Assembly: GCF_000878135.1 (NCBI RefSeq)
Contig: NZ_JXQZ01000032.1
Location: 186,001 to 250,000, forward strand
Source of the DNA: Frigoribacterium sp. MEB024
Lineage (GTDB): Bacteria; Actinomycetota; Actinomycetes; Actinomycetales; Microbacteriaceae
DNA length: 64,000 bases
Direction: 5' to 3'
Of this stretch, positions 1,896-46,633 are shown piece by piece (positions within the stretch are counted from its first letter, which is position 1; every line of letters begins with the position of its first letter). The position numbers and the translations under genes were made by a program. The notes beneath the pieces are model-generated. The model did not search any database, was not told the origin of the DNA, and was given only the letters and a program-made list of their open reading frames with translations.

Positions 1896-2833
1896 GACAC
1901 GTCCTCGGCGACGTTGTGGCGTTCCACCACGGGGTCGCGCCAGCCGAGGATCGCCTCGACCATGCGGACGGCGTCGACGCTGGCCCGGACGTCGTGCATC
2001 CGGACGATGCGCGCGCCCTGCAGCACGCTCACGGCCGCCGCTGCGAGCGAACCGGCCAGCCGGTCGGGTTTGTCGCGACCGAGGGACTCGCCGACGAAGT
2101 CCTTGTTGGACACCGCGGCGAGCGTCGGGTGGCCCAGGCCGGCCACCTCGGACAGGCGCCGGGTGAGCTCGAGCGAGTGCCGGGTCGTCTTGTTCAGGTC
2201 GTGCCCCGGATCGACGACGAGTCGGTCGTCGGGCACGCCGTGGGCGCGGGCCACGTCGACCCGCCGCGCGAGGAACTCGACGACCTCGGCGACGACGTCG
2301 TCGTAGTGCGGCCGGGGATGCGGCCGTCGGGGTGCGGCCAGGCTGTGCGTGACGACCAGCGTGGCACCGCTGTCGGCGACGACGTCGGCCAACCGCGGGT
2401 CGTGGAGCCCCGTGGTGTCGTTGACGACGTGCGCCCCGGCGGCGATGACGCGTTCGGCGACCTCGGGGCGGAAGGTGTCGACGGAGATGACGACGTCCGA
2501 CCGGACCGAGAGCGCTTCGACCACGGGCAGGACCCGATCGAGTTCGTCGGAGGCGGACAGCTCGGGCCCAGGGGCGAAGGGGACGCCCCCGATGTCGACC
2601 CAGTCGGCGCCCGCCGCCGCCGCGTCCACCGCGGCCTGCACGGCGCGGTCGAGGGCGAAGGTCGCGCCCTGGTCGAAGAAGGAGTCGGGCGTGCGGTTGA
2701 CGATCGCCATGACCGCGACCTGGCGGGAGAAGTCGAAGGTCCGCGACCCGATGCGTCGCCGAGGGACGAGCAGCGGGGGCAGGGCGGGTGCGGGGGAGTC
2801 GGCGTCGTGGGGCTGCCCCGCGGCCTCACGCAC
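1892..2833 (-). CDS. Dihydropteroate synthase paralogue, FolP2 type
   Basis: TIM-barrel protein of the dihydropteroate-synthase family, 313 residues. Pterin-site motifs are kept: MAIVNRTPDSFFD (Asn of loop 1), ISVDTFRPEV, VVNDTTG, a DPG motif and RIVRMHDV near the end. The substrate loop that reads GGESTRPG in true synthases is here GGVPFAPG, the DPGxGFGK motif is DPGHDLNKT, and the RKS lysine motif is SNKDFVGE. These substitutions match my recollection of mycobacterial FolP2 (Rv1207 type), which is reported to lack dihydropteroate synthase activity. The GTG start overlaps folE by eight bases and the end overlaps the reductase by four, so the three are made together. Likely product: an unknown reaction on a pterin or related ligand. 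Confidence 0.82.
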   Translation of the reverse strand: MREAAGQPHDADSPAPALPPLLVPRRRIGSRTFDFSRQVAVMAIVNRTPDSFFDQGATFALDRAVQAAVDAAAAGADWVDIGGVPFAPGPELSASDELDRVLPVVEALSVRSDVVISVDTFRPEVAERVIAAGAHVVNDTTGLHDPRLADVVADSGATLVVTHSLAAPRRPHPRPHYDDVVAEVVEFLARRVDVARAHGVPDDRLVVDPGHDLNKTTRHSLELTRRLSEVAGLGHPTLAAVSNKDFVGESLGRDKPDRLAGSLAAAAVSVLQGARIVRMHDVRASVDAVRMVEAILGWRDPVVERHNVAEDVS

Positions 2834-3413
2834 GGGGCGCGCCGATCAGGGCGACCGCCTCGGCCCGCGCCGACGCCTGGGACAGCACGCCCCGACTGGC
2901 GAGCGTCACCGTCGTGCTGCCGGTCTGGCGGGGGCCGCGGGTCGTGACGCAGCCGTGCGAGGCGTCGAGCACCACGAGGACGCCGTCGGGGCGAGCGCCC
3001 GCCTGCAGGGCCTCGGCGATCTCCTCGCCGAGGCGCTCCTGGAGCTGGGGACGCGAGGCCACGGCGTCGACCACCCGGGGAAGCGCGCCCAACCCGACGA
3101 TCGTCTCACCCGGCACGTAGGCCACGTGTGCGACACCGACGAAGGGCAGCAGATGGTGCTCGCACACCGACCGGAACGAGATGTCGCGGACGATCACGAC
3201 CTCGCCGAGTTGATGGGCCTCGGCCGAGACCGTGGCCTGGCGGACGAGGTCGGCCGCGTCGATCGTGAGTCCCGAGAAGAACTCGACGTAGGCGTCGGCG
3301 ACGCGTCGAGGGGTGGACTCGAGGCCCGGGCGGTCGACGTCCTCACCGATCGCGGCGAGCAGTTCGAGCACGGCGGCCTCGATGCGGGGCCGGTCGACGG
3401 GCGGGGGAGTCAT
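2826..3413 (-). CDS. folE: GTP cyclohydrolase I
   Basis: Opens the GTP imidazole ring to give dihydroneopterin triphosphate, the first step to pterins and folates. The 195-residue length is typical. The zinc site is complete: Cys and His in SVCEHHLLPF and the second Cys in ASHGCVTTRG. The active-site stretch FVGVAHVAYVPGETIVGL and the helix VVDAVASRPQLQERL are canonical. The tail GPRQTGSTTVTLASRG differs slightly from housekeeping FolE. It follows the unknown gene at 3426 with a 12-base gap and overlaps the FolP2-like gene. Relatives of this clade usually carry a separate folate operon elsewhere, so this may be a second, dedicated copy; that point is not visible here. Confidence 0.92.
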   Translation of the reverse strand: MTPPPVDRPRIEAAVLELLAAIGEDVDRPGLESTPRRVADAYVEFFSGLTIDAADLVRQATVSAEAHQLGEVVIVRDISFRSVCEHHLLPFVGVAHVAYVPGETIVGLGALPRVVDAVASRPQLQERLGEEIAEALQAGARPDGVLVVLDASHGCVTTRGPRQTGSTTVTLASRGVLSQASARAEAVALIGAPRA

Positions 3414-3425
3414 CAGGCCATCTTC

Positions 3426-3926
3426 TCAGGCGACGGGGTCGACCGCGGCGTCGTTCCCGTCCGCCCCCGGCGTCGTCGATTCGCGGGGGAGCGCCTCGTG
3501 GTGCCGCCGTCCGTGGCTGCGCCGCGCCTCCTTCATCTCGGCCTCGAAGAGATGCCTCTTGCCGCCCGCGAGAGAATCACGTATGTTCTGCTCATGGTCG
3601 CGGAACGCGGCGTAGTAGCCGTCGTCGTAGTCCTCCACGATCTGGTAGGTCCATCGGCCCTCGACGACGTTGCGACCGACGAGGTCTCGATCGAGCAGGT
3701 CGGCGACCTCGACGTGTCCGGCGCGTCGGAGCGACTCGACGGCGTCGCCGAGGGCCAGGTCGGCCTTGCCGGTCAGTCGGTGGAAGCCGTAGAGGAATCC
3801 TCGTGCCTGCTCGACGATCTCGAGCGCGGCCGAGAGCTCGCCGAGCGCGGCGACGGTGTCGTCGTCGAGCCCGTCAGGTCGACGGTGCGCGGCGTCGGGC
3901 GGTGTGTGGGTCGCGTCGGTCGTCAT
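3426..3926 (-). CDS. Conserved-looking protein of unknown function, first gene of the folE operon
   Basis: I do not recognise a family for this protein of 166 residues. It is soluble, with no signal peptide or membrane segment. The core (about residues 25-145) is helical and acidic, with AALEIVEQARGFLYGFHRL, a tyrosine-rich YQIVEDYDDGYYAAFRDHE and a basic His-rich end KEARRSHGRRHHE. The N-terminal 25 residues and the Ala/Asp-rich C-terminus look disordered. The ATG at 3926 is preferred because GGAG lies about 13 bases upstream; a TTG at 3938 would sit on top of that GGAG. Its position directly before folE, the FolP2-like gene and the reductase suggests a shared transcript and perhaps a shared pathway. 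Confidence 0.7.
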   Translation of the reverse strand: MTTDATHTPPDAAHRRPDGLDDDTVAALGELSAALEIVEQARGFLYGFHRLTGKADLALGDAVESLRRAGHVEVADLLDRDLVGRNVVEGRWTYQIVEDYDDGYYAAFRDHEQNIRDSLAGGKRHLFEAEMKEARRSHGRRHHEALPRESTTPGADGNDAAVDPVA

Positions 3927-3998
3927 GCGACCAGGCAACTCCGTGGAGGCGCGGCATGCGTCAGCGGGGAGCGCTTCCCACGCCCGATTCCCACTTAC

Positions 3999-4031
3999 TT
4001 GACATAATGTGCATTATCAGTCACATGACAA
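3999..4031 (-). promoter_or_regulatory. AT-rich palindrome / putative promoter-operator of the folE-folP2 operon
   Basis: An unusually AT-rich island in GC-rich surroundings. ATAATG-TG-CATTAT (4004-4017) is a short palindrome nested in a larger dyad: TTGACATAATGTG at 3999-4011 mirrors CACATGACAA at 4022-4031. On the minus strand TTGTCA (4031-4026) lies 17 bases from ATTATG (4008-4003), a plausible but weak -35/-10 pair. It is about 75 bases upstream of the gene starting at 3926. The regulator is unknown. Confidence 0.4.
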
Positions 4032-4071
4032 AGCCGGAAGGGGTTCGCGGGCGGCGTGAGCGTCCTGCTCC

Positions 4072-4536
4072 TCAGGCCTCGGACGAGCTGTCCAGCACCG
4101 TGCGCAGCAAGTCGACGAGGTCGGCGGGCTCGACCGGTTCGACGATCGTCGTCAGGTCGTCGAGGCTGAACCAGCGCGACTCGAGGATGTCGGTGCGCTC
4201 GTCGTCCGTCCAGTCGTCGTCGACGACCTCGAAGTGCGGCAGGCGGACGACGAAGAACTCCGCGTGACCGTGCGTGTGGTCGGCGTCGTCCCAGGACACC
4301 TCGAAGTCGTCCACGCGCACGACGTCGCCGACCGCGGTGACCACCTGGCCGGTCTCTTCGTGCAGTTCGCGGACGGCCGCCTGGACGTGCGTCTCGCCCG
4401 GGTCGACACCGCCACCCGGGGTGATCCAACGCGCTGTCCGACTGGTGTCGGGCGCCACCGTCTTCATGAGGAGCACGCGGTCGTCCCCGTCGAGGACGAG
4501 GAGGCGCGAGGTCGGTCGGACGATGCGCTCGGTCAC
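4072..4536 (-). CDS. Nudix hydrolase
   Basis: Hydrolase of nucleoside-diphosphate-linked compounds, 154 residues, cytoplasmic. The Nudix box is intact: GGGVDPGETHVQAAVRELHEETG at about residues 40-62, matching G-x5-E-x7-REUxEExGU. The preceding TARWITPGG and following EVSWDDADHTHGHAEFFVVRL are typical of small MutT/ADP-ribose-type members. The GTG start lies 13 bases after the SDR gene stop, so they probably share a transcript. The substrate cannot be assigned. A repair or housecleaning role is possible but not shown. Confidence 0.88.
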   Translation of the reverse strand: MTERIVRPTSRLLVLDGDDRVLLMKTVAPDTSRTARWITPGGGVDPGETHVQAAVRELHEETGQVVTAVGDVVRVDDFEVSWDDADHTHGHAEFFVVRLPHFEVVDDDWTDDERTDILESRWFSLDDLTTIVEPVEPADLVDLLRTVLDSSSEA

Positions 4537-4549
4537 GAGGTGCCCCGTC

Positions 4550-5317
4550 TCAGACGATCGGCGCGAAGTCGCTGGTGTCGCCCACCAGTCGGGTGTGGTC
4601 GGCCGGGACGGGGTCGACGGCGGCCGATGCGACCTCGGCGGCGAACTCGGCGACGTTGTACAGCTTGCCCGCGCTCTCTTTCCGCGACGAGATGGCCCCG
4701 GGATTCGACCGTTCGAGCAGGGTCGCCGTGATCGTGCCCTCGATCATGTCGCCCGAGACCACGACGAACTCGACGCCCGCGGTCTCGAGCTGCGGCAGCA
4801 TCTCGCGCAGGGCGTCTTCGCCGGCACGCTTGCTCAGGGCGACGGGAAGGTACTCGGGCATCGTCTCGGTCGTGCGGATGAAGTGGGCCTGGTGACTCGT
4901 GACGAAGACGACGCGCGAGCCCGGGGCGAGCAGCGGCAGGGCCGCGGTCAGCAGCGCCACCTGGGCGTCGCGGTTCAACTTGAGCGCGTAGTCCTCGGCC
5001 ATGCCCGTCTCCATGCCGCCCGAGGCGTTCATGACGAGGACGTCGAGGCCGCCCCAGGCCTCGCGCACGGTCTCGAACATCGTCGCCAGGCTGGCCTCGT
5101 CGGTCAGGTCGGCCCCGATGGCGATCGCCTCGCCGCCGGCCTCCTCGATCTTCGAGACGAGCTGCAGCGCGCGCTTCTCCTTGTTGCGGTAGTTCACGAC
5201 GACCTTGGCACCGGCCTCGGCGAAGTACCGCACGGTGTCGGCGCCGATCCCCCGGGACGACCCGGTGACCAGGACTCGGGCTCCGGCGAGGGACTCTGCG
5301 GCGAGGGGGTTGGACAA
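4550..5317 (-). CDS. Short-chain dehydrogenase/reductase-like protein lacking the catalytic Tyr
   Basis: Rossmann-fold SDR of 255 residues. It has the cofactor motif TGSSRGIG (18-25), an acidic residue at D70, an NAG-like MNASG (97-101) and the active-site Ser141 in VVFVTSHQ. The canonical YxxxK is not present: the Lys is K163 but the residue four before it is Val159 (PVALSKRAGED), and the nearest Tyr is 156. The protein may therefore be a binding protein, or use Tyr156 or another residue. The TTG at 5317 is chosen because GGAG lies six bases upstream and the next residues lead straight into the fold. A TAGGGT -10 box lies at 5372-5367. It is divergent from nfeD and followed by the Nudix gene. 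Confidence 0.85.
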   Translation of the reverse strand: MSNPLAAESLAGARVLVTGSSRGIGADTVRYFAEAGAKVVVNYRNKEKRALQLVSKIEEAGGEAIAIGADLTDEASLATMFETVREAWGGLDVLVMNASGGMETGMAEDYALKLNRDAQVALLTAALPLLAPGSRVVFVTSHQAHFIRTTETMPEYLPVALSKRAGEDALREMLPQLETAGVEFVVVSGDMIEGTITATLLERSNPGAISSRKESAGKLYNVAEFAAEVASAAVDPVPADHTRLVGDTSDFAPIV

Positions 5318-5366
5318 GGCGTGCTCCAGACTGTGCGGGGTTCGATCGGCCCGTGGACCGGACTCG

Positions 5367-5411
5367 ACCCTACCAATCCCCCTCGTCACCGTCGGTGGTG
5401 GGTGGTAGTTT
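5367..5411. promoter_or_regulatory. Divergent promoter pair between SDR and nfeD
   Basis: On the minus strand TAGGGT (5372-5367) is a -10 box for the SDR gene, with a leader of about 45 bases. On the plus strand TAGTTT (5406-5411) preceded at 17 bases by TCGTCA (5383-5388) is a -35/-10 pair for the nfeD-stomatin operon, whose start at 5441 has GAAGG five bases upstream. Confidence 0.5.
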
Positions 5412-5440
5412 CCATAACAGGGGAACGAGAGAAGGTCGAC

Positions 5441-5920
5441 GTGGACGTCCTGAACGATTACGCATGGGTCGCGTGGATCGCGCTCATCCTGGTGTTCGTC
5501 ATCGTCGAGGTGACGACGCTCGAATTCACCTTCCTCATGCTCGCCATCGGCAGCGTCGGTGGTCTGCTCGCGGGCCTCTTCGGCGCCCCGTGGTGGTTGC
5601 AGGCGATCGTCGCGGCCGTCCTCGCGGTCTTGTTGCTGTTCACGGTGCGGCCACCGTTGCTGCGGGCGCTCCGCCGCGGGGGCGATCCGACCCCCAGCAA
5701 CGTCGAGGCGCTGCTCGGGCTGCGCGGCACGGTCGTCGTGCCGATCGGCTCCGACGCCGGCCAGGTCAAGCTGTCGAACGGCGAGACCTGGACGGCCCGC
5801 GTGCTGTCCTCCCCCGCGACGTCGGCGGGCGCCGACCTCGCACTCGACACCGGGGCCCCGGTCGTCGTGACCGCCATCGAGGGGTCGACGGCGTTCGTCG
5901 CCCCCGCAGAGAGGTCCTGA
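5441..5920 (+). CDS. NfeD-family membrane protein
   Basis: Partner protein of stomatin/SPFH proteins in membrane microdomains. It has 159 residues: two or three membrane helices within about 8-75 (WIALILVFVIVEVTTLEF; IVAAVLAVLLLFTV), then a C-terminal OB-fold domain from about 90, beginning LLGLRGTVVVPIG. The GTG at 5441 has GAAGG five bases upstream. The SPFH gene begins only four bases after its stop, the classic NfeD-stomatin operon arrangement. The ClpP-like protease domain of long NfeD proteins is absent, so this is the short form. Confidence 0.88.
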   Translation: MDVLNDYAWVAWIALILVFVIVEVTTLEFTFLMLAIGSVGGLLAGLFGAPWWLQAIVAAVLAVLLLFTVRPPLLRALRRGGDPTPSNVEALLGLRGTVVVPIGSDAGQVKLSNGETWTARVLSSPATSAGADLALDTGAPVVVTAIEGSTAFVAPAERS

Positions 5921-8423: not shown

Positions 8424-10052
8424 TCAGTCGACGACGCGCCACCGCGGCAGGATCGGATCGGGTGCCTCGTCGAGCCGGCGGCGACGAGCCGACCGGCGGG
8501 TACCGATGAACAGACGGGACAGCAGCAGCATCGCGAGACCGAAGAACGACACGAGCAGTTCGATCGCCCGACTCGCCGCCACGGCGGGCGTCGTCCCGGT
8601 GCCGAGGTCGACCACCGCCACCATGGTGCCGGGCTCGTAGTCGGGGATGCTCGCGGTCGTCCTGCCCGAGGCGTCGATGGCTCGCGTCGAGGCGACGGTC
8701 GAGACGTTGACGAGGGGCCGGGCCGTCTCGATGGCGCGCAGGCGGGCGATGGCGAGTTGCTGCTCGTTCTCGTCCGTCTGGCCGGGACGGGTGCCGAAGT
8801 CGGCGTTGTTCGTCTGGCCGATGATGACCTGCGCCCCCTCGTCCATCATGTTCGTGATGAGCTGGTCGTCGACGATGTCGAAGCAGATCGAGATGCCCGC
8901 CCGGAAGTCACCCAGGTCGAAGACCTCGTCACGCGTGCCCGGGGTGTAGTCCCGGCCGATCAGGTCGATGAGATCGGGGGCGAAGGGCCGCCAGAAATCA
9001 CGGTCGGGCACGTACTCGCCGAACGGGACCGGGTGCTTCTTGTCGTACTGGTCTCGCACGCCTCCGTCGGACCAGAGGAGGGACGAGTTGTAGACGGTCT
9101 CACCGTCGTCGCTCTCGGTGATGACTCCTGACACGAGGGGCGCGTCGTAGCCACGGGAGATCGCGTCGAAGACGTACCGGCCGGTGGCGTCGCGGGTGGG
9201 ATCGCGGTCGCTGCCGCCCTCGGGCCAGACGATCATGTCGAGGGAGCGCTGGTCGTCGGGCAACTGCGCGAGTTGGGCCTGCAGGTCGCTCATCGCGAGC
9301 ACCTGGGCGTTGGTGAGGTCGCCGTACTGCCGGTCGGCGAAGTAGCCGGCGTCGCCGTCACCCTGGACGGCGGCGATGGTGGCCGTGCCGGAGGAGTGCG
9401 TCGGCCAGGCGGGCACGGCGAGGGCGGCGACCACGACCGTCGCACCCGCGAGCACACGGGTCGAACCCCGGACGGTCGTCTGGAGGGCGAGCTGGATCAG
9501 TGCGGCGACGATCGCCACCATGAGGAACGACAACCCCGAGATGCCCAGCCAGGCCACGAGGCCGGCGAACGGGCTCTCGGATTGGCTGAGTGCCACCCGG
9601 CCCCACGCGAAGCCGCCGTAGGGCCAGGTGCCGGCGACGAACTCACGGAGCGTCCAGAGCCCCCCGACGACGACCGGCAGGAGGACCGTGCGGCCCAGGG
9701 TGCCGGGCCAGACGCGCGGGACCCAGCGGTACGCCAGGGTGATCAGCATCGCCCCGGCGGCGAAGAAGAGCGCCTCGAGCGTCGACAGGGCGGCCCAGGG
9801 CACGACGCCGAGGAAGAGCGTCGCCCACGAGATGTGGATCAGGTAGAAGGACAGGCCCGCCACGAGGCCGAACAGGAACGAACCGCCGAGCGACCGGCCT
9901 CGGAGGGCCAACAACACGAACCCGATGCCGACGAAGGTCAGCGGCCAGACGTCACCGTCGGGGAAGCCGCCGTCGAGGACGGCGCCGGCACCGAGTGCGA
10001 CGATGAGGGCCAGCCAGAGGGGCAGTCGGACGTCGATCGCTCGGGAAGACAC
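8424..10052 (-). CDS. lnt: Apolipoprotein N-acyltransferase
   Basis: Transfers an acyl chain to the N-terminal Cys of membrane lipoproteins. It has 542 residues. Seven or eight membrane helices fill residues 8-215, followed by an extracytoplasmic nitrilase-type domain (about 222-505) with the catalytic triad E278 (WPEGGSD), K338 (YDKKHPVPFGEYVP) and C390 (ISICFDIV), and a last membrane helix near 500-520. The tail is Arg-rich. The GTG start is preceded by TAGAAT (10064-10059) at six bases, so the mRNA is probably leaderless. At least two lipoproteins, FKBP and the osmoprotectant binding protein, are encoded in this window as possible substrates. Confidence 0.93.
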   Translation of the reverse strand: MSSRAIDVRLPLWLALIVALGAGAVLDGGFPDGDVWPLTFVGIGFVLLALRGRSLGGSFLFGLVAGLSFYLIHISWATLFLGVVPWAALSTLEALFFAAGAMLITLAYRWVPRVWPGTLGRTVLLPVVVGGLWTLREFVAGTWPYGGFAWGRVALSQSESPFAGLVAWLGISGLSFLMVAIVAALIQLALQTTVRGSTRVLAGATVVVAALAVPAWPTHSSGTATIAAVQGDGDAGYFADRQYGDLTNAQVLAMSDLQAQLAQLPDDQRSLDMIVWPEGGSDRDPTRDATGRYVFDAISRGYDAPLVSGVITESDDGETVYNSSLLWSDGGVRDQYDKKHPVPFGEYVPDRDFWRPFAPDLIDLIGRDYTPGTRDEVFDLGDFRAGISICFDIVDDQLITNMMDEGAQVIIGQTNNADFGTRPGQTDENEQQLAIARLRAIETARPLVNVSTVASTRAIDASGRTTASIPDYEPGTMVAVVDLGTGTTPAVAASRAIELLVSFFGLAMLLLSRLFIGTRRSARRRRLDEAPDPILPRWRVVD

Positions 10053-39504: not shown

Positions 39505-39904
39505 CACGCGGGCGAGGGTGATTGTGACGGGTGATGCGCCCCTCGACCGGTCGGTCGGGGGGCGCTGTCCGTCTGTACCCCACCGGTGTCCTCCGAGAGG
39601 GGGACGAGGTCGGATGAACGACACGTGTCGTGATGGTGAACGCCGTCCTCGTTCGCGTGTCGAGCATCCGTTGGTAGGTGTGATCAGGCCTCTGATCAGG
39701 TATTTTGCAGAGGGTGACCGGATGCTCGCGTCCTGCCTTCGGAGGGACACGCCGCACCGGCCCGTTTCACGGCTCCTTGTCACCCCCGCACGGGTGACAC
39801 GACGGGGGTCGGGAGTCACCCGTTCGGGTGTCGGCAACAGGGGGGACACGACCGCCCCCGAACGGGGGGTCTCGATGGGCTCCTGCGTCGGGTGCCCCCC
39901 GAAC
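39505..39904. other. 400-base non-coding region with several inverted repeats
   Basis: No convincing gene. Structure seen: a perfect palindrome ACGACACGTGTCGT (39618-39631); TGATCAG-GCCT-CTGATCA (39681-39698) just before TATTTT (39701-39706); TGTCACCC/GGGTGACA (39778-39799); CACCCG-TT-CGGGTG (39817-39830); and CCCCCGAAC occurring twice before the promoter at 39905. It probably holds the end of the importer operon and the control region of the glycan cluster. Confidence 0.5.
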
Positions 39905-40201
39905 TAGAGTCACAGCATCCTCCTGGTCGACCCGAAATCACCAGGAACCCGAGAAACCCGACCCTCTCCCCGGGAGCTCGTGCTCCCACATCACCGCACC
40001 GACCCGAATCGTGCGCCGAGCAGACCCGCTGCCCGGCGCGCCCGTCGCCGCCCCGGCCGCCGTCGCGCACCCTCGTGACGTCCGTGCCGCGGCGCGACGC
40101 CTGGGCGGTCGATCGAACCCGAATCTCGATCGACCGCCCGCCACCGCCCCGTCGTCACCACCGACGTGGGCGTGCCGTCGCCTACCCGAACCCGAGACCC
40201 G
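39905..40201 (+). promoter_or_regulatory. Promoter and about 290-base structured leader of the glycan operon
   Basis: TAGAGT (39905-39910) is a -10 candidate. The following untranslated stretch has three hairpins: TCCTGGT/ACCAGGA (39921-39946), GGGAGC-TCGT-GCTCCC (39972-39987) and a perfect 14-bp stem GGGCGGTCGATCGA/TCGATCGACCGCCC (40103-40139) ending 62 bases before the start codon. No T-run follows the last stem. It does not match a riboswitch class I know. Confidence 0.5.
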
Positions 40202-41773
40202 ATGTCCAGCACGCAGAGCGAACTCCGCTCAGTCCTGGTCGGACCGTCGTCACCCCGACGGATCGACCCCCCGTTCGACCTGCCCGAGTCGGAGGCTTCC
40301 CTCGCCTCCCCCGCCGCGACACACGACGCCGAGTCCGGCGCGGCCTGGGCTCGCCGCTACCGGCGCCGCCTCCGCCTCGTCGACACCGTCGTCCTGACCC
40401 TGAGCATCGTCGGTGCCGTCGCGGTGGACGCCGCGAGGGCCATCGCCGCCGGTCGGGGCTCGGACGCGACCACCCTCGTCGAGTCGGTCGGCTCGCCCGT
40501 GCTGCCCGTCGTCGTGGGACTGGTCTGGACCCTGTGCCTGACGCTGCACCGCACCCGCGACCTCGCAGTCGTCGGCAGCGGCGTCGTCGAGTACAAGCGC
40601 CTCCTCACGGCCAGCGTCTGGGCGTTCGCCGTCGTGGCGATCGGGTTCGCGTCGGTCGGTCACATCGGTGGCGAGGGCTACTTCCTCGTGGCGCTGCCCG
40701 TCGGCGGGGCCGGCCTGGTCGTCGGCCGGTGGACGATGCGGCGTTGGCTCGAGCGTCAGCGTGCGAAAGGTCACTACCTCTCGAGGGCGGTCGTCGTGGG
40801 GTCTCGCGACGACATCGCGGACGTCGTCCGTCGCATCGACAAGACGAGCGGTGCCGTGTACGACGTCGTCGGGGCCGCCGTCCCGGACGCCGACCCGCGG
40901 GGCATCGTCGTCGGAGGTCGCGTCGTCCCCGTGGTGGCCGACCTCGACGGGGTCCCCCGTGCGGTCTGGCGTCTGGGCGCCGAGAGCGTGATCGTCGCCG
41001 GCGAACCCGGTCGTGGCCGCGAGTACCTCCGCGACCTCGGATGGTCGCTGGAGGGACGCGCGACGGAGCTCGTCATCGCCTCGCGACTGACGAACGTCGC
41101 CGGGCCGCGCATCCACTACCGTCCGGTCGAGGGTCTTCCCCTGATGCACGTCGAGCTGCCGCAGTTCGACGGCCCGCGGCACGCCCTCAAACGTCTGTCC
41201 GACCTGGTGCTGGCGTCCGCCGCCCTCGTCGTCCTCGCGCCGGTGTTCGCGGTGGTCGCCCTCGCGGTGCGGCTCGACGGCCCCGGCCCGGTGTTGTTCC
41301 GCCAGCGCAGGGTCGGCCGGGACGGGCGCACCTTCGAGATGCTGAAGTTCCGTTCGATGGTCGTCGACGCCGAGAGCCGTCTCGCCGACCTGACGCAGGC
41401 CGACGAGGGCGCCGGCCTCCTCTTCAAGATGAAGTCCGACCCCCGAGTCACCCGCGTCGGCGGTGTCCTCCGCCGCTGGTCGCTCGACGAGCTGCCCCAG
41501 CTGTGGAACATCGTCCGGGGCGAGATGAGCGTCGTCGGGCCCCGGCCGCCCCTCCCCCGCGAGGTCGAGGGGTACGAGGACCACGTCCACCGACGTCTCT
41601 ACATCAAGCCCGGTCTCACCGGCATGTGGCAGGTGAACGGGCGCAGCGACCTCAGCTGGGAGGAGAGCGTCCGTCTCGACCTCTACTACGTCGAGAACTG
41701 GTCGCTGACGGTCGACTTCGTCATCATGTGGCGCACCGTCCGCGTGCTCTTCGAGCACCGGGGAGCGTATTGA
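40202..41773 (+). CDS. Polyprenyl glycosylphosphotransferase (WbaP/CpsE-type initiating sugar transferase)
   Basis: Starts glycan assembly by moving a sugar-1-phosphate from UDP-sugar to undecaprenyl phosphate. It has 523 residues: a disordered N-terminus, four membrane helices (about 60-195), a central nucleotide-binding-like domain (about 200-320) and the catalytic Bac_transf domain (about 345-523). The latter has KRLSDLVLASAALVVLAPVF, VLFRQRRVGRDGRTFEMLKFRSM, RRWSLDELPQLWNIVRGEMS and GPRPPLPREV. The ATG at 40202 has only a weak GAG upstream; an in-frame GTG at 40166 is possible. It is the first gene of the cluster. Confidence 0.92.
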   Translation: MSSTQSELRSVLVGPSSPRRIDPPFDLPESEASLASPAATHDAESGAAWARRYRRRLRLVDTVVLTLSIVGAVAVDAARAIAAGRGSDATTLVESVGSPVLPVVVGLVWTLCLTLHRTRDLAVVGSGVVEYKRLLTASVWAFAVVAIGFASVGHIGGEGYFLVALPVGGAGLVVGRWTMRRWLERQRAKGHYLSRAVVVGSRDDIADVVRRIDKTSGAVYDVVGAAVPDADPRGIVVGGRVVPVVADLDGVPRAVWRLGAESVIVAGEPGRGREYLRDLGWSLEGRATELVIASRLTNVAGPRIHYRPVEGLPLMHVELPQFDGPRHALKRLSDLVLASAALVVLAPVFAVVALAVRLDGPGPVLFRQRRVGRDGRTFEMLKFRSMVVDAESRLADLTQADEGAGLLFKMKSDPRVTRVGGVLRRWSLDELPQLWNIVRGEMSVVGPRPPLPREVEGYEDHVHRRLYIKPGLTGMWQVNGRSDLSWEESVRLDLYYVENWSLTVDFVIMWRTVRVLFEHRGAY

Positions 41774-41850
41774 GCCCGTCCAGCAGCATCCGAGACCACC
41801 ACGGGCCGTTCACGGGCCCGGACCACGCTCACGACGACAGGGGAGACAGC

Positions 41851-43149
41851 ATGTCCGTCGACATCAGGCACTACAGGGACCGCGAGTCCGCACCGGCGGC
41901 GACCGCCGCACCGACGGCGACCGCCGCACCGACGGTGACCGCCGCACCGGCCACTCGGGAGGACGCCCGCGCGGGCGTCGACCTGCCCGAACTCCCCCGC
42001 CGCCGGAGGGGATCGCGTCGCAGCCGGGTGCTGCTCGTGCACTCGTCCGACGAGATGTACGGCTCGGACCGGATCGTCCTCGAGGTGGTCGGCGAGCTCG
42101 CCGCCCGCGACGACCTCGACGTCACGGTCTGGCTGCCCTCCGACGTCGCGGTCGGGCCCCTGGGTCCGAGGCTGCGCGAACTCGGCGCACGCGTCGAGCG
42201 GACGCCCCTGCCGATCCTGCGCCGGACCCGGCTCGGGCCGCTCGGACTCGTCCGCCTGGCCCGTGACGCGGCCCGTACGGCGCTCCGCTTGTCCGGACGC
42301 CACTTCGACCTCGTCTACTGCGCGACGAGCGCGTGTCTCGTCGTCGCTCCCGTCGCCCGGGCCATGGGCGTCCGCCGCGTCGTGGGACACCTGCAAGAGC
42401 CCTGGAGCGCCGGTGACCGTCGTGGCCTCCGTCCTCTGGCCCGCGCCTGCACCTCGCTGGTCGCCGTGTCGCGCTCGGTGCTCGACTCGTCCGGCCTCTC
42501 GGACGACTCGCGTGCGGTCGTGGTCCACAACGGCGTCTCGGACCGGTCGATCGCCGCGAGCGACCGCACCGAGGGCCGCGAGCCCCAGTACGTGGTGGCG
42601 AGCCGATGGAACGGCCACAAGGGCCACGCGACGCTGCTCACCGCCTGGAACGCGGCGGGCTGCCCCGGTCAGCTCGTCGTCCTGGGCGGCCCCCCGGCCG
42701 TCGGCTCCTCGGTCGACGTGCCGGGTCTCGTCGCTGCCATCGTCTCGCGGCCCGAGACGGTCGTCGTCGTGGGAGAGGTCGACGACGCGTCGCCCTACCT
42801 GCGCGACGCCGACGCGGTCATCCTGCCGACCGACACCCTCGAGGGGTTCGGACTCGTGACCCTCGAGGCGTTCAGTCAGGGGCGTCCCGTCATCGCCAGC
42901 CGCTCCGGTGGTCCGGAGGAGGTCGTCGACGAGGGCCGCACGGGCTGGCTCTTCGACCGTCGCGACGTCGACGGCCTGACGGCGATCCTCGCGTCGATGG
43001 ACGTCTCCACCCTGGCCGTCGCCGGGCGCCACGCCCGCGAGGCCTACCTGCAGCGGTTCACGCCGGAACGCATGCGCCGCCGCATCGGTGCCGTCGTCAC
43101 GCGCGAACTGCACACGGCCGACGTCGACTCGCTGGCGGTGGCCTCGTGA
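41851..43149 (+). CDS. Glycosyltransferase family 4-like
   Basis: GT-B glycosyltransferase of 432 residues. An Ala/Thr/Pro linker (about 14-33) comes from an 18-bp tandem repeat. The acceptor domain begins SRVLLVHSSDEMYGSDRIVLEVV and the donor domain has VVASRWNGHKGHATLL, VILPTDTLEGFGLVTLEAFSQGRPVIAS and GGPEEVV, the E-x7-E retaining motif. It probably adds the second sugar to the lipid-linked primer. GGGGAG is seven bases before the ATG. The next gene overlaps it by four bases. Confidence 0.9.
   Translation: MSVDIRHYRDRESAPAATAAPTATAAPTVTAAPATREDARAGVDLPELPRRRRGSRRSRVLLVHSSDEMYGSDRIVLEVVGELAARDDLDVTVWLPSDVAVGPLGPRLRELGARVERTPLPILRRTRLGPLGLVRLARDAARTALRLSGRHFDLVYCATSACLVVAPVARAMGVRRVVGHLQEPWSAGDRRGLRPLARACTSLVAVSRSVLDSSGLSDDSRAVVVHNGVSDRSIAASDRTEGREPQYVVASRWNGHKGHATLLTAWNAAGCPGQLVVLGGPPAVGSSVDVPGLVAAIVSRPETVVVVGEVDDASPYLRDADAVILPTDTLEGFGLVTLEAFSQGRPVIASRSGGPEEVVDEGRTGWLFDRRDVDGLTAILASMDVSTLAVAGRHAREAYLQRFTPERMRRRIGAVVTRELHTADVDSLAVAS
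41891..41949 (+). repeat. In-frame 18-bp tandem repeat
   Basis: About 3.3 copies of CACCGACGGCGACCGCCG, with single-base variants, begin at 41891, 41909, 41927 and 41945. They encode an (AAPTAT)n-like linker at the N-terminus of the glycosyltransferase. Copy number could vary between strains without breaking the frame. Confidence 0.85.
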
Positions 43150-43943
43150 GCGACACCACCACGACCTCTGCGTCGACCACGGCCCGACCCGCCGTGCCCC
43201 GTGCCGTGCGGCCCGCCCTCGCCGCCCTGGCGTCGGCCCAGAAGCCGTCGACGGGTGCGCCCGCCTACTCGCGCTTCGTCAACCGCCGCCTCGGTCGCTG
43301 GGCCGCCGCGGTGGCCTACACGCTGGGTGCGACGCCGAACCAGGTCACCGCTCTGAGCGCGGCGTGCACCTTCGCGGGCATCGCCGTCCTCGCCCTCGCG
43401 CCGTCCGGCATCGGCACGGCCGTGGCCGTCGTCCTGCTCCTCGTCGTGGGATACGCGCTCGACTCGGCCGACGGGCAGGTCGCCCGACTCCGTGGTGGCG
43501 GCAGCCCCGCGGGCGAGTGGCTCGACCACGTCATCGACGCGACCAAGATCGCGGTGCTGCACCTGGCCGTCTTCGCGTCGTGGTTGCGTGAACCGGACGG
43601 TCGCGAGGCCCTGCTGGCCGCACCGCTCGTGTACCAGGTCGTGGCGACGGTCGCGTTCTTCGCCATCGTCCTGACCGATCAGCTCCGCCGGGCGGAGGCG
43701 GCCCGGACCGGCGTCGCCGCGCCCGTGGGACGTCGTACAGGGCTGCTCTACTCCCTGGCGGTCGTCCCGACGGACTACGGCCTGATGTGCCTCGCATTCG
43801 TCCTGTTGGCCTGGCCGCCCGCGTTCACCGTGGTCTACCTCGCCCTCCTCGTCGCCAACGCCGGCTACCTCGTCCTCGCCCTGCCGAAGTGGTTCCGCGA
43901 ACTGAAGTCCGTGACGCCCCCGTCGATCGGGTCGAGGCCGTGA
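43146..43943 (+). CDS. CDP-alcohol phosphatidyltransferase-family membrane enzyme
   Basis: Transfers a phospho-alcohol from a CDP-linked donor, or a lipid phosphatidyl group to an alcohol. It has 265 residues with about six helices. The catalytic signature D-x2-DG-x2-AR-x8-G-x3-D-x3-D is complete (DSADGQVARLRGGGSPAGEW, then LDHVID). A hydrophilic N-terminus includes the conserved APAYSRFVNRRLGRW. The GTG overlaps the glycosyltransferase stop by four bases. Because a cytidylyltransferase is encoded two genes later, it may use CDP-glycerol or a similar CDP-polyol to decorate the glycan; that is inference. Confidence 0.88.
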   Translation: MSDTTTTSASTTARPAVPRAVRPALAALASAQKPSTGAPAYSRFVNRRLGRWAAAVAYTLGATPNQVTALSAACTFAGIAVLALAPSGIGTAVAVVLLLVVGYALDSADGQVARLRGGGSPAGEWLDHVIDATKIAVLHLAVFASWLREPDGREALLAAPLVYQVVATVAFFAIVLTDQLRRAEAARTGVAAPVGRRTGLLYSLAVVPTDYGLMCLAFVLLAWPPAFTVVYLALLVANAGYLVLALPKWFRELKSVTPPSIGSRP

Positions 43944-45388
43944 GCCGCGAGGGCGCACCTGCCCGACGTGCCCTCGTCGGTGGTCTCGGTCGGGCCGTGT
44001 CACGCCATGCCGCGCTCGTCGGCGTGGCGGCCCTCCTGGGGGTGGCCGCCGGCGTCGGCGCGTCGCAAGCAGCTCCGGCAGGTTGGCGCGCCGAGGCGAC
44101 CCTCCTCGTCCGCGTCGAGTCCCCGGGATCGGGCCTCGCGGCCCGAGGGCAGTTCCCTCAGCAGCGCGTGGCGTCCTACGCCGAGCTGGGTACGAGCCCC
44201 GAGGTCCTCGGGCCGGTCGCCGCCGACCTCGGCGTGCCCGTCGACGAACTCGCCGAACGGGTCTCGGTGGTCAACCCGGGCGGCACCGCCGTCCTCCGCG
44301 TGCAGACGACGGCCGGGACGCCCGACGAGGCGGCCTCGCTGGCCGACGACGTCGCGGAGAGCCTCACGGCGGTCGTGGACCGCGTGGAGTCCCAGGGCGA
44401 TCCGGACGGTCGGACCGTCGCGCTCGACCTCACCTCCCCCGCGGCCGTGCCGACGACGCCTGACGAACCGGGCCTCGCGCTGACGATGCTCTCGGGACTC
44501 CTGGCCGGTCTGGCCGTGGGCCTCGCGGGCGCGCTCGTCCTCTCCCGTGCCCGGCCGACGGTCGACTCGGTCGACGACGTCCGCCGGATCACGGGGCTCC
44601 CGGTCGTGGGACAGCTCCCGGGGGCCCTCCGACACGGCGACGACCCGGTCACCGGGGTCTCGTCCGCCCGGACCCGCACGGCCCTCCGCGAGATCGTCCA
44701 GAACACGCGGGCACTGCGCGGCGGCGCACTGCCCGCCACGCTCCTGCTGGCACGGACCGATTCGGTCCGCGAGGCGGTCGGCGTCGACGGCGGTCTCGCG
44801 CGCGCCGTCGTCGAGCTCGGCGCCACCTGCGCCCTGGTCCAGTCCGACTTCGACACCCGCACCCTGTCCCGCCCCTCGACGGTGCCCGTCGGCGCCGTGC
44901 CCGAGGAGGTCGAGGCCGATCGGCACGGATACGACCGCGTGCCGGTGCCCGACGGGGTCGTGGCGTCGTCCCGTCATCTGGTCCGCTCCGGGACCCACGC
45001 GTTCTTCGCCGCCCTCCGGGAGGACTACGACGTGTCCGTCGTGCAGGCTTCGAGCGACTCCCACCCGCTCGCGTTGCGCAGCGTGACCGACGAGGTCGAC
45101 GGCGTGCTGCTCGTCGTCCGGTCCGGCGTCACGACCGCCGAGTCCCTCCGGAGCCTGAGCGCCGAACTGCTCAGCCTGGACGTCCAGCCCGTGGGCGTCG
45201 TGCTGACCGGTGTGCCCCCGTGGCGCCGGGTCCTGGTGCGTGCCACCTGGCTGGACGACGACATCCGCCAGCCGGTCGCGGAACCCGCCCCTTCCTTCAG
45301 CATCGCCGACCTCGTCGACCACGCCGGCGGGACCCGTCCGCTCCAGGACCTCCCCCGCCTCCGACGCCGGCCCGGTGCCCTGTCGTGA
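43940..45388 (+). CDS. Wzz/chain-length-like protein with degenerate tyrosine-kinase domain
   Basis: Polysaccharide co-polymerase-like protein of 482 residues. Membrane helices lie at about 20-40 and 172-195, enclosing an extracellular Wzz-type domain (WRAEATLLVRVESPGSG, then VNPGGTAVLRVQTTAGTPDEAA). The cytoplasmic C-terminal part (about 205-450) looks like a BY-kinase P-loop fold, but no GxxxxGKS/T Walker A is present; the equivalent stretch reads LLLARTDSVREAVGVDGGLA. No Tyr cluster is seen at the end. It likely sets chain length or export without kinase activity. The GTG overlaps the preceding stop by four bases. Confidence 0.82.
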   Translation: MSREGAPARRALVGGLGRAVSRHAALVGVAALLGVAAGVGASQAAPAGWRAEATLLVRVESPGSGLAARGQFPQQRVASYAELGTSPEVLGPVAADLGVPVDELAERVSVVNPGGTAVLRVQTTAGTPDEAASLADDVAESLTAVVDRVESQGDPDGRTVALDLTSPAAVPTTPDEPGLALTMLSGLLAGLAVGLAGALVLSRARPTVDSVDDVRRITGLPVVGQLPGALRHGDDPVTGVSSARTRTALREIVQNTRALRGGALPATLLLARTDSVREAVGVDGGLARAVVELGATCALVQSDFDTRTLSRPSTVPVGAVPEEVEADRHGYDRVPVPDGVVASSRHLVRSGTHAFFAALREDYDVSVVQASSDSHPLALRSVTDEVDGVLLVVRSGVTTAESLRSLSAELLSLDVQPVGVVLTGVPPWRRVLVRATWLDDDIRQPVAEPAPSFSIADLVDHAGGTRPLQDLPRLRRRPGALS

Positions 45389-45426
45389 CCACACCCGAGC
45401 AGCACCCCTCCGAGAGGACCACACCC

Positions 45427-45975
45427 GTGGACGTCATCCCCACCCCCGCCACCGGCCTCGCCCTCGACCCCGTCGAGGTCGGGAGAGGACGAGGAGGCGC
45501 GGGCCGGGTCGGCTACGCGGCCGGCGCCTTCGACCTGTTCCACATCGGCCACCTGAACCTGCTGCGGCACGCGTCCGCGCAGTGCGACCACCTCATCGCC
45601 GGGGTCGTGTCCGACGAGATGCTGCAGGTGACGAAGGGGATCTCGCCGGTCGTCCCCCTCGCCGAACGACTCGAGATCGTCCGTCACATCGACGTCGTGG
45701 ACGGCGTCCACGCCGAGACGGTGCCCGACAAGATGGACGTCTGGCGCGAGCTGCGTTTCGACGTCTTCTTCAAGGGCGACGACTGGCGGGGCACCGAGAA
45801 GGGCCTCCGGCTCGAGCGCGAGTTCGGGGAGGTGGGGGTCGAGGTCGTCTACTTCCCGTACACGATGAGCACGTCCAGCACGGTCCTCCGTCGCGCGCTC
45901 CGGGCCCTCTCGGGTGCACCGGGCCACGGCGCCGAACCGGTCACCGTCGGCGACTCCGTCCGGCTCCAGGGCTGA
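45427..45975 (+). CDS. Cytidylyltransferase-like nucleotidyltransferase (TagD-like)
   Basis: Makes a CDP-linked alcohol (for example CDP-glycerol) from CTP and a phospho-alcohol. It has 182 residues. Motifs: GAFDLFHIGHLNLLRHA with the HxGH signature, VPLAERLEIVRHIDVVDGV, FKGDDWRGTEKG and the closing MSTSSTVLRR. The GTG at 45427 is chosen because GAGAGGA is eight bases upstream; a GTG at 45385 overlapping the previous stop is the alternative. It is the last gene of the overlapping cluster. One copy of the dispersed 11-mer lies near its start (45492). Confidence 0.87.
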   Translation: MDVIPTPATGLALDPVEVGRGRGGAGRVGYAAGAFDLFHIGHLNLLRHASAQCDHLIAGVVSDEMLQVTKGISPVVPLAERLEIVRHIDVVDGVHAETVPDKMDVWRELRFDVFFKGDDWRGTEKGLRLEREFGEVGVEVVYFPYTMSTSSTVLRRALRALSGAPGHGAEPVTVGDSVRLQG

Positions 45976-46066: not shown

Positions 46067-46633
46067 ATGACACTCACCTCGGTCCTCGACACCACCCCCG
46101 CCCGACCGCCCGACGACGGGATCGGGGCCCGCGACGAGTGCGACCCGGCACGGGCCGTCGATCCGCACGCGCCCGTCCGCGACGTCGCCGACCTCGTCCG
46201 GCACGTCGAGGCCATCGTCCCCGTGGCGGTGCGTCGGCAGCTCTGGACGTTGTTCTTCGACGACGACGACGTCCCCCTGCCCCTCATGGTGCCGCTCGAG
46301 GGCATCCCCGAGGTGCCCGACACCTCCGCCCTGGACCACTACGGTGACGCCCTGGCGGCCGTCGCCACGGAGTTCGGCGCCGGGACCGTGGCGTTCGTCC
46401 TCGAGAGGGTCGGGGCCGCGTCGTGCGGTCCTTCGGATCGACGGTGGGCCGAAGGGCTCCGGGCGCTCGGTCGAGGACGACCGTTCGAGGTCCGACCGGT
46501 CCTGCTGTGCGGCGACGACGGCGTGTCCGTGCTCGACGCGGGCCGTGGAACGGGCGGACGCACAGCACGGGGTGGTGTCCCTCAGGCGTCCTCGAGCCCC
46601 GTCCGCCTGGTCGACATCGTCCGCCTGCCCTGA
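46067..46633 (+). CDS. Hypothetical protein
   Basis: No family recognised. It has 188 residues, no signal peptide and no membrane helix. The N-terminal 40 residues are Asp/Pro-rich. The middle (about 45-165) looks folded, with VADLVRHVEAIVPVAVRRQLW, LFFDDDDVPLPLMVPLEGIP and FGAGTVAFVLERVGAASCGPSD. No clear Shine-Dalgarno sequence precedes the ATG. It lies after the glycan cluster but 91 bases away. Its last 50 bases overlap the 3' end of the opposing small gene. Confidence 0.6.
   Translation: MTLTSVLDTTPARPPDDGIGARDECDPARAVDPHAPVRDVADLVRHVEAIVPVAVRRQLWTLFFDDDDVPLPLMVPLEGIPEVPDTSALDHYGDALAAVATEFGAGTVAFVLERVGAASCGPSDRRWAEGLRALGRGRPFEVRPVLLCGDDGVSVLDAGRGTGGRTARGGVPQASSSPVRLVDIVRLP

Follow-up and report, generated by a model that had tools for sequence, protein, structure and literature searches.

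A five-gene cluster of Frigoribacterium predicted to begin a split Wzx/Wzy polysaccharide pathway and to provide its CDP-alcohol branch

What does a bacterium make with a compact cluster in which an initiating sugar transferase stands beside a cytidylyltransferase and a CDP-alcohol phosphotransferase, and where is the remainder of the pathway? The window analysed here, a 64,000-nucleotide stretch of Frigoribacterium sp. MEB024, carries at 40202-45975 on the forward strand five co-directional open reading frames that are real and correctly placed. A sequence-only reading had seen in them lipid-linked sugar initiation and a CDP-alcohol branch combined in one cluster, and the families of the encoded proteins bear this out. 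The first gene (40202-41773) encodes a 523-aa initiating sugar transferase of the EPS_sugtrans type, predicted to be a polyisoprenyl-phosphate hexose-1-phosphate transferase (Bac_transf PF02397, 232.5 bits); with TIGR03025 at 406.4 bits against a cut-off of 295.55, the initiating polyprenyl-phosphate sugar transferase of a Wzx/Wzy pathway is present. It is followed, after a 77-bp gap, by a GT4 glycosyltransferase of up to 432 aa (41851-43149; PF13692, PF00534, PF13439), whose N-terminus is of low complexity and whose start is uncertain, lying at 41851 or, by a second gene caller, at 42028. Then come a 265-aa CDP-alcohol phosphotransferase (43146-43943), a 482-aa Wzz-like polysaccharide co-polymerase (43940-45388) and a TagD/ECT-like cytidylyltransferase of 182-196 aa (45385-45975). 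GTGA start/stop overlaps connect these last four genes at 43146-43149, 43940-43943 and 45385-45388, that is, at three of the four junctions and not at two as first counted. No terminator-like site was found inside 40202-45975, and a single transcript of five genes is plausible from the sequence. The 697 bp without a called gene upstream of the cluster (39505-40201) are probably a leader or promoter region, a function that we infer; they contain the inverted repeat TGATCAG-GCCT-CTGATCA (39681-39698, 7-bp arms, 4-base loop), and the scan returned one terminator-like site, against a chance expectation of 0.6 for the sequence it covered. For the Wzz-like protein no Pfam match was found at E<=0.001, and its NCBIfam matches (TIGR01006, 41.1 bits against 296; TIGR03007; TIGR03029) all fall below cut-off. 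By pattern check its C-terminal half is a degenerate BY-kinase-like domain that lacks both a Walker A pattern and any tyrosine among its final 40 residues.

Where are the flippase and the polymerase? Their absence, as first reported, holds for the locus at 40202-45975 and fails for the genome, because contig C126 holds a wzx-like and a wzy-type gene. This contig encodes a Wzx-like, a Wzy-type and a Wzz-like protein, glycosyltransferases, a weakly DUF4352-like exported protein and a secreted 1552-aa propeller/LamG/PKD protein. The Wzy protein reaches 35 bits against a Wzy_C PF04932 cut-off of 31.7 (31.7 bits with a second gene call), which gives the linked set a Wzy-type polymerase. The Wzx-like protein scores 26.5 bits for PF01943 against a cut-off of 28.2 and, used as a protein query, had no Pfam match at E<=0.1; the Wzz-like protein scores 24.3 bits for PF02706 against 25.5. 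A genome-wide PF02397 search returned four sugar transferases, on C63, C104, C43 and C47, and none on C126. Further Wzx/Wzy-type sets are present on C47 and C71, and the cassette might be cross-linked with one of these, or C126 with the sugar transferase of C104.

The gene set and the linkage of its parts are established by sequence, by gene order and by co-occurrence. In a relative from another genus (G022) the CDP-alcohol enzyme, GT4, wzz, wzx, glycosyltransferases, propeller, wzy and cytidylyltransferase stand in succession over about 20 kb, with wzx 74% and wzy 50% identical to those of C126; the 40 kb examined there show no sugar transferase. In a relative from another family (G043) the CDP-alcohol enzyme, cytidylyltransferase, wzx, wzy, wzz, propeller and sugar transferase are gathered within about 25 kb, the wzx and wzy being 52% and 40% identical to those of C126 and the sugar transferase 48% to that of the window. 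The names wzx and wzy in G022, G043 and the congener G011 rest on C126 homology, helix content and place, because Pfam scores are below cut-off or missing: the Wzx-like orthologue of G022 and the flippase-like protein of G011 had no Pfam match at E<=0.1, the Wzy-like proteins of G022 and G011 do not reach the PF04932 cut-off, and their counterpart in G043 is without a Pfam match. Within the genus (15 relatives), C126-type wzx and wzy and the propeller occur in all eight genomes with the compact cassette; G011 and G012 have the propeller and other, unrelated wzx-/wzy-like genes in the locus, without C126-type wzx, and five of the 15 have an empty site and neither propeller, cassette nor C126-type wzx/wzy. 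In single-contig genomes the two halves lie far apart, at 2.10 versus 3.20 Mb (G008) and 1.89 versus 0.79 Mb (G015).

The gene set is recurrent in many actinobacteria. Across 60 genomes, G000 included, the CDP-alcohol enzyme was found in 23, the cytidylyltransferase (140 bits or more) in the same 23, and the propeller in those 23 and in G048, where the CDP-alcohol enzyme is absent. In a class-wide sample of 296 genomes the cytidylyltransferase accompanies the CDP-alcohol enzyme in 31 of 31 cases (48 genomes overall) and the propeller in 30 of 31 (82 overall), while 17 of the 48 cytidylyltransferase genomes are without the CDP-alcohol enzyme at the threshold used. Among the best 80 named loci, within the flanks examined, 71 contain a sugar transferase, propeller or Wzz gene, 50 contain the cytidylyltransferase, and nine have none of the three glycan markers. 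In Kribbella loci the CDP-alcohol enzyme lies between two cytidylyltransferase-like genes with a GT4 adjoining, and because of this arrangement and the nine loci without glycan markers the two enzymes may also function apart from Wzy loci.

The cytidylyltransferase (PF01467, 57.7 bits) carries HxGH, KGDDW and a C-terminal PYT...SST signature. Its AF2 model (pLDDT 82) has TagD, 1coz, as best Foldseek match in the PDB (E 1e-10, TM to target 0.89), whereas a comparison of sequences alone favours human ECT, 3elb (E 3.9e-16), over 1coz (1.8e-9). The CDP-alcohol enzyme matches CDP-OH_P_transf (PF01066, 39.6 bits, cut-off 22) and reads D106xxDGxxAR...G123E124xxD127H128xxD131; the superfamily motif D1xxD2G1xxAR...G2xxxD3xxxD4 and the superfamily fold are both present. 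E124 and H128 are invariant in all 19 aligned sequences (the window protein and 18 relatives from a protein search) and in all 36 of a second alignment that overlaps the first and for which some of the sequences were chosen with the search pattern GEWLDH. The pair sits inside G2ExxD3HxxD4 as in the Kennedy enzymes CHPT1 and CEPT1; two papers present D1xxD2G1xxAR...G2ExxD3HxxD4 as an extended motif proposed by their authors for eukaryotic choline/ethanolamine phosphotransferases (PMC10182977, PMC10156783), and the first reports that the Glu/His pair is required in xlCHPT1 (PMC10182977). At the corresponding positions two PF01066 paralogues of the same genome read GK..DP and one on C70 reads GV..DK. 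In the AF2 model (pLDDT 89) long helices form a bundle, as would suit a membrane enzyme. The model matches AF2299 (Z 18.5, rmsd 4.0, 224 aligned), IPCT-DIPPS (Z 17.8, rmsd 4.5, 219 aligned), mycobacterial PIPS/PgsA1 (Z 15-16; for 6h5a_A Z 15.7, rmsd 3.3, 196 aligned) and, lower, CHPT1 (Z 13.1, rmsd 3.6, 200 aligned) and CEPT1 (Z 11.1, rmsd 3.2, 200 aligned); sequence and fold searches alike place AF2299, DIPPS and PIPS above CHPT1/CEPT1.

Based on this evidence, we propose that the cluster covers the initiation and the CDP-alcohol branch of a Wzx/Wzy polysaccharide pathway whose export half is on C126, and that a phospho-alcohol is placed onto the glycan, a reading that we hold to be rather probable as a whole. 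That the cluster forms part of a Wzx/Wzy pathway together with C126 is highly likely, and that the cytidylyltransferase makes a CDP-alcohol which its partner CDP-alcohol enzyme uses is likely; for the phospho-alcohol itself, the glycan is somewhat the likelier destination than a lipid. We infer the individual activities and their order, together with the alcohol and its acceptor, as follows. The sugar transferase would attach hexose-1-phosphate to undecaprenyl phosphate, and the repeat unit would be extended by the cluster GT4 and the glycosyltransferases of C126. The cytidylyltransferase would convert an alcohol phosphate (glycerol-3-phosphate is our first guess) and CTP into a CDP-alcohol, from which the membrane phosphotransferase, with its Kennedy-type Glu/His pair, would pass the phospho-alcohol to a hydroxyl of the lipid-linked glycan. 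Export and polymerisation would fall to the Wzx-like flippase and Wzy polymerase of C126, with the Wzz proteins, and secreted propeller/LamG/PKD and beta-helix proteins might bind the exported polymer or act on it. The product could still be a phosphate-bearing polymer that is teichoic-like in chemistry. On a wider scale it is conceivable, at somewhat less than even chances, that a bacterial Kennedy-type module, comprising a dedicated cytidylyltransferase and the enzyme with the eukaryotic-type Glu/His pair and using a lipid-linked sugar instead of diacylglycerol as acceptor, operates across the Actinomycetes, adding a phospho-alcohol to a Wzx/Wzy polysaccharide displayed with a propeller/LamG/PKD surface protein.

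Could the acceptor be a lipid after all? The two enzymes would then follow a Kennedy-like route in which CDP-alcohol and diacylglycerol, or another lipid alcohol, yield a special phospholipid or lipid anchor, on which the polysaccharide would be anchored or primed. Enzymes with diacylglycerol as acceptor have this Glu/His pair, the fold matches CHPT1 and CEPT1, the long-helix bundle befits a membrane enzyme, and a role in anchoring still fits the locus. We nevertheless regard this route as unlikely: polysaccharide genes accompany the two enzymes in most of the best 80 named loci, the CDP-alcohol enzyme is missing from 37 of the 60 genomes, unlike a core phospholipid enzyme, and its 265 residues, modelled as about six long helices, are without the four extra helices of the ten-helix eukaryotic enzymes. 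More doubtful is a teichoic-like backbone with the alcohol phosphate in the main chain, bridging repeat units, and not in a side group; although suggested by the TagD-like fold of the cytidylyltransferase, it sits poorly with the lack of any TagB/TagF-type Pfam match among the five proteins, the mark of wall teichoic acid synthesis, and with the linked Wzy-type polymerase. The route first envisaged by the sequence-only reading, a short lipid-linked disaccharide carrying a phospho-alcohol and made with neither flippase nor polymerase, took its appeal from the single GT4 and single initiating transferase of the cluster. It now appears very improbable, given the Wzz-like gene inside the cluster, the wzx-/wzy-type genes sharing the locus in G011, G012, G022 and G043 and the way in which the propeller and C126-type wzx and wzy are distributed within the genus; that reading had called for a search for wzx and wzy elsewhere and named a standard Wzy system as the outcome that would count against it, and C126 is that outcome. 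It had equally staked itself on the CDP-alcohol enzyme not being an ordinary phospholipid synthase, and here it stands: a PgsA or PIPS lying beside glycan genes by chance, in spite of PF01066 membership, the fold match to mycobacterial PIPS/PgsA1 and a weak match to the PIPS family NF045883 (33.1 bits, far below the cut-off of 170), is most improbable in view of the Glu/His pair, the patchy distribution, the glycan-gene linkage and the PgsA-like motifs of distinct PF01066 proteins on C117 and C82, and by sequence the enzyme does not look PgsA- or PIPS-like.

What would the proposed glycan-directed pathway imply? When bacterial glycans carry phospho-alcohol groups, these are usually attributed to other enzyme classes, LicD, TagF-like or EptA-like. 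If a PF01066 enzyme decorates a glycan here, glycans would join the acceptors of the CDP-alcohol superfamily, and there would be a first genetic handle on a surface polymer that many actinobacteria share. The case also illustrates how a pathway may seem incomplete when its locus is split, and co-occurrence combined with single-locus relatives offers a simple rule for locating the missing half.

No description of this gene set was found in the open-licence literature, and its parts resemble several known systems. TagD/TarD (1coz, 2b7l) share the fold, HxGH and GDDW with the cytidylyltransferase, which differs from them in scoring 58.1 bits against the 165.4 cut-off of the glycerol-3-phosphate cytidylyltransferase family TIGR01518 and in its C-terminal stretch, where PRTEGISTT of 1coz is replaced by PYTMSTSST; PYT...SST also occurs in the Fom1 domain 5x3d. 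AF2299 and IPCT-DIPPS of Archaeoglobus, the best structural matches, share the CDP-alcohol phosphotransferase fold and read GAWLDGVLDR and GGYVDSILDR, without the Glu/His pair; to our knowledge they belong to no polysaccharide locus. Actinoplanes missouriensis has Wzx/Wzy-dependent EPS loci, imp and wps-1 to wps-3, in which predicted Wzx, Wzy and Wzz proteins are encoded side by side with glycosyltransferases; deletion of wps-1 affects sporangia, and the main text, in its available part, contains no CDP-alcohol, cytidylyltransferase, beta-propeller or PKD terms (PMC13390465). The Frigoribacterium pathway is, in contrast, split over two loci. The EPS of Myxococcus xanthus is described as the product of a Wzx/Wzy pathway that includes EcpK, a tyrosine pseudokinase (PMC12004946); in the Frigoribacterium cluster the degenerate kinase-like half is fused to the Wzz part. 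The Kennedy enzymes CHPT1/CEPT1 with CCT/ECT offer the same pairing of a cytidylyltransferase with a CDP-alcohol phosphotransferase and the same GExxDHxxD motif (PMC10182977, PMC10156783), whereas the cluster enzyme is smaller than these ten-helix proteins, lies in polysaccharide loci and scores closer to AF2299/DIPPS and PIPS.

We propose that the cassette at 40202-45975 belongs to a Wzx/Wzy pathway whose genes are split between two places in the genome, with an export half on contig C126 and a CDP-alcohol branch that would put a phospho-alcohol on the glycan. In the window (G000:C63:186001-250000, from an assembly, G000, of 3.41 Mb and 136 contigs) the five open reading frames were recovered where the sequence-only reading had placed them, all on the + strand. 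The sugar transferase (40202-41773) exceeds the TIGR03025 cut-off in Pfam and NCBIfam searches, the GT4 glycosyltransferase (41851-43149) has Pfam/NCBIfam support, the CDP-alcohol enzyme (43146-43943) belongs to PF01066, the Wzz-like protein (43940-45388) has sub-cut-off matches in Pfam and NCBIfam, and the cytidylyltransferase (45385-45975) is a PF01467 nucleotidyltransferase. The GTGA overlaps described earlier are present, at three of the four junctions rather than at two; the first junction is a 77-bp gap. The C-terminal half of the Wzz-like protein shows a weak likeness to BY-kinases (TIGR03029, 19.8 bits). Since a pattern check found neither a Walker A pattern nor a tyrosine in the last 40 residues, the protein would be a co-polymerase with a pseudokinase half. 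The N-terminus of the GT4 (41851-42027) consists of an imperfect Ala/Thr/Pro repeat, and gene calls for it differ in length between relatives; the true start may lie further downstream than 41851. Upstream of the cassette, an inverted repeat with a terminator-like score (TGATCAG-GCCT-CTGATCA, 39681-39698) could be the end of the neighbouring ABC operon or an operator. A search for RNA families returned a tRNA alone, and a promoter scan, uninformative for high-GC DNA, returned nothing.

Where is the export half of the pathway? A route free of flippase and polymerase, as the earlier claim that Wzx and Wzy are absent implied, had to be abandoned: wzx- and wzy-type genes were found on C126, in the loci of relatives and in cassette-bearing relatives. 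Wzy_C matches in G000 lie over the cut-off on C53 (two), C43 and C126 and below it on C47 and C71, and the flippase-like matches, on C126 and C71, are both under the cut-off. The C126 cluster encodes a propeller/LamG/PKD protein of 1552 aa, an exported protein weakly like DUF4352, Wzy-type, Wzx-like and Wzz-like proteins, and glycosyltransferases. A genome-wide search for PF02397 located four sugar transferases, distributed over C63, C104, C43 and C47; C126 has none. A right-handed beta-helix protein (L039:1370-3856) is encoded beside the C126 wzy. Two more Wzx/Wzy-type sets are present in G000, on C47 (L042) and C71 (L041); C71 lacks a PF02397 sugar transferase, and C104 has a lone one close to its end. 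The parts of the cassette and of C126, and the linkage between them, are evident from sequence, gene order and co-occurrence.

Fifteen relatives make up the genus sample, and the locus occurs there in three states. A compact, window-like five-gene cassette next to an osmoprotectant-type ABC operon is found in G005, G009, G010, G013, G014 and G015, and in G001 and G008 the compact cassette has the same neighbour and a shorter Wzz. At the empty site of G002, G003, G004, G006 and G007 the ABC operon directly adjoins a homologue of the 188-aa open reading frame at the cassette edge (46067-46633; no Pfam match at E<=0.01), which in these genomes has 50-57% identity compared with 82-93% for its neighbours. 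The third state is a long locus (G011, G012) encoding a sugar transferase, an exported protein, a multi-helix protein, a propeller/LamG/PKD protein of 1348 aa, a GT4, the CDP-alcohol enzyme, Wzz, a Wzy-like protein and the cytidylyltransferase. All eight compact-cassette relatives carry C126-type wzx, propeller and wzy, the last at 67-75% identity by tblastn on stretches around the remote locus, where the gene caller had overlooked wzy in several cases; its presence in 8/8 strengthens the linkage of the two halves. The compact cassette also occurs outside the genus, in G019 (named twin L079, Frondihabitans), with C126-type wzx at 66% and wzy at 53%. In the five cassette-less genomes propeller, C126-type wzx and cytidylyltransferase are all missing at E<=1e-10. 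G011 and G012 have no C126-type wzx and, within 20-kb stretches, no C126-type wzy, and blastp did not match the wzx- and wzy-like genes of their long locus to the C126 counterparts. The multi-helix protein of that locus, which has no Pfam match, is taken for a putative flippase, and its Wzy-like protein scores 26.2 bits for PF04932, under the cut-off of 31.7; such absent or sub-cut-off Pfam matches weaken the names flippase and polymerase in some relatives. Seven of the eight compact-cassette relatives have a membrane glycosyltransferase of the PMT_2 type encoded between wzy and the exported protein, a position where none was seen in C126 or G008. One adjoins the remote wzy in G019 as well, and a weaker homologue (32%) is encoded on C104.

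In other relatives the two halves stand together. G022 has homologues of the C126 genes, the CDP-alcohol enzyme, a GT4 and the cytidylyltransferase consecutively within about 20 kb, and no sugar transferase was found in 40 kb around the locus. In G043, from another family, a stretch of about 25 kb contains C126-type genes together with the cytidylyltransferase, the CDP-alcohol enzyme and a sugar transferase with 48% identity to its window counterpart. The halves are on different contigs in G000 (C63, C126); G008 and G015 are assembled as single contigs and still show them about 1.1 Mb apart, which rules out an assembly artefact as the cause of the split. Across 60 genomes the CDP-alcohol enzyme is present in 23, G000 included, and the propeller in the same 23 and G048. 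The cytidylyltransferase is found in 30 of the 60 relatives at E<=1e-10, and in the same 23 when matches of at least 140 bits are counted. Among 296 genomes of the class, 31 have the CDP-alcohol enzyme, 48 the cytidylyltransferase (including 31/31) and 82 the propeller (including 30/31, G162 being the only genome with the enzyme and without the propeller). P values are only indicative here, related genomes being treated as independent, and the counts per genus are safer: cytidylyltransferase and propeller each accompany the CDP-alcohol enzyme in 13/13. G173, of the same family, has the cytidylyltransferase, three propeller matches and no CDP-alcohol enzyme at threshold, which would reflect loss, divergence or an assembly gap.

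A wider sample is given by named loci. From 516 confirmed stretches the best 80 were kept (full flanks in 61/80); since the gene caller overlooked the CDP gene in 11/80, counts were made on six-frame open reading frames. In these 80 loci a sugar transferase is present in 45, the cytidylyltransferase in 50 (over 100 bits and within 3 kb of the CDP-alcohol enzyme in 43), the propeller in 48, Wzz in 47 and a match to the DUF4352-like profile in 32; 71 loci have one or more of the trio sugar transferase, propeller and Wzz. The nine with none of the trio are L085, L100, L116, L121, L123, L135, L138, L143 and L152; of these, L100, L121, L123 and L143 are Kribbella by name, and the flanks are short in L116, L121, L135, L143 and L152. 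Cytidylyltransferase-like genes of unequal score flank the CDP-alcohol enzyme in L121, L123, L138 and L143 (and L100) and in L094, L105, L112 and L153; the Kribbella-type flanked loci are without sugar transferase, propeller and Wzz, and in those of Actinomadura the neighbourhood includes propeller, Wzz and Wzx-like genes. A recurrent, otherwise unassigned family in 32 of the 80 includes right-handed beta-helix proteins (two members scanned, both PF13229); beta-helix proteins near the CDP-alcohol enzyme or a linked wzy are possible polymer-modifying enzymes.

What would the branch transfer? We infer the enzyme activities throughout, as well as which alcohol is used, which acceptor receives it and in what order the steps run. 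The cytidylyltransferase (CYTIDYLYLTRANSFERASE) is a coherent family in which the HxGH residues and KG.DW are invariant (alignment A2, 30 of 46 listed references). In Foldseek its model (pLDDT 82) is best matched by TagD (E 1e-10); Plasmodium CCT, TarD and the Fom1 domain come next, and human ECT ranks further down. By sequence (phmmer) human ECT has the top score. The protein falls below the TagD equivalog cut-off and that name was rejected, the TagD-like fold being retained. Choline or ethanolamine, suggested by the phmmer match, was not adopted as substrate because the GDDW part is TagD-like. Unassigned genes lying no more than 8 kb from the CDP-alcohol enzyme in the same 80 loci number 435, and no alcohol kinase was recognised in their 22 largest families, judged mostly by eye from 60 residues, with a Pfam scan of a member in 4/22; one unassigned family, in five loci (four Kribbella-type), has by eye a mannitol dehydrogenase-like start. 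As no alcohol-specific gene was recognised by eye, we would guess first at a common alcohol phosphate, for instance glycerol-3-phosphate.

Taken singly, Wzx/Wzy pathways, PF01066 enzymes and TagD-like enzymes are familiar. The open-licence literature matches listed hold no description of the three combined in a conserved actinobacterial locus, with the propeller/LamG/PKD protein and a CDP-alcohol enzyme bearing the Glu/His pair of the motif D106xxD109G110xxA113R114...G123E124xxD127H128xxD131; in the excerpt of PMC12419801 the sole mention of CDP-alcohol concerns archaeal lipids. The window protein and 18 relatives from a protein search all have E124 and H128 (alignment A1, with 18 of 23 relative loci; L008, L009, L015 and two G024 pieces left out), as do 36/36 sequences of the partly pattern-selected alignment A3 (L088 and L141 excluded for a stop codon in the range given; L096, L120, L129 and L139 also left out). 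The pair occurs in 79 of the 80 best named loci, partly a selection effect, GEWLDH being one of two search patterns (L145 is a misfit to the pattern). It is missing from the other three PF01066 proteins of G000, and a PgsA/PIPS identity was rejected by family scores and motifs compared with these paralogues. Among the named matches listed for the CDP-alcohol enzyme of the window, the closest are from Frigoribacterium sp. PhB24 (92%) and Leaf186 (91%), and the genus is accordingly taken as Frigoribacterium, of the Microbacteriaceae. In the less complete genome G024 the match falls in two separate pieces (G024:C1:192263-192971), so that the gene may be interrupted there or the sequence in error. 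Contig C70 encodes another CDP-alcohol enzyme of a different kind, without the pair and with D4 replaced; its neighbours include a MobA-like nucleotidyltransferase and an ABC-2 type transporter (L043, G000:C70:10001-30000, genes 2739-5885 and 8975-9781), perhaps a separate teichoic-like glycopolymer set. According to excerpts of a study of Xenopus CHPT1, Glu129 and His133, which match E124 and H128, are highly conserved in eukaryotic enzymes and absent from most bacterial ones, replacement of either by alanine almost abolishes activity, and an extended motif G2ExxD3HxxD4 is proposed (PMC10182977). The model of the window enzyme (pLDDT 89) has the CDP-alcohol superfamily fold and is closest to AF2299 (Z 18.5, rmsd 4.0, 224 aligned), followed by IPCT-DIPPS (Z 17.8, rmsd 4.5, 219 aligned), mycobacterial PIPS/PgsA1 (e.g. 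6h5a_A, Z 15.7, rmsd 3.3, 196 aligned) and CHPT1 (Z 13.1, rmsd 3.6, 200 aligned); Z below about 13 may reflect the common arrangement of helical bundles. Judged by its catalytic residues, the enzyme should act like the Kennedy enzymes. However, it lacks the additional helices of CHPT1/CEPT1 and scores nearer the prokaryotic enzymes, and is therefore not a member of that group.
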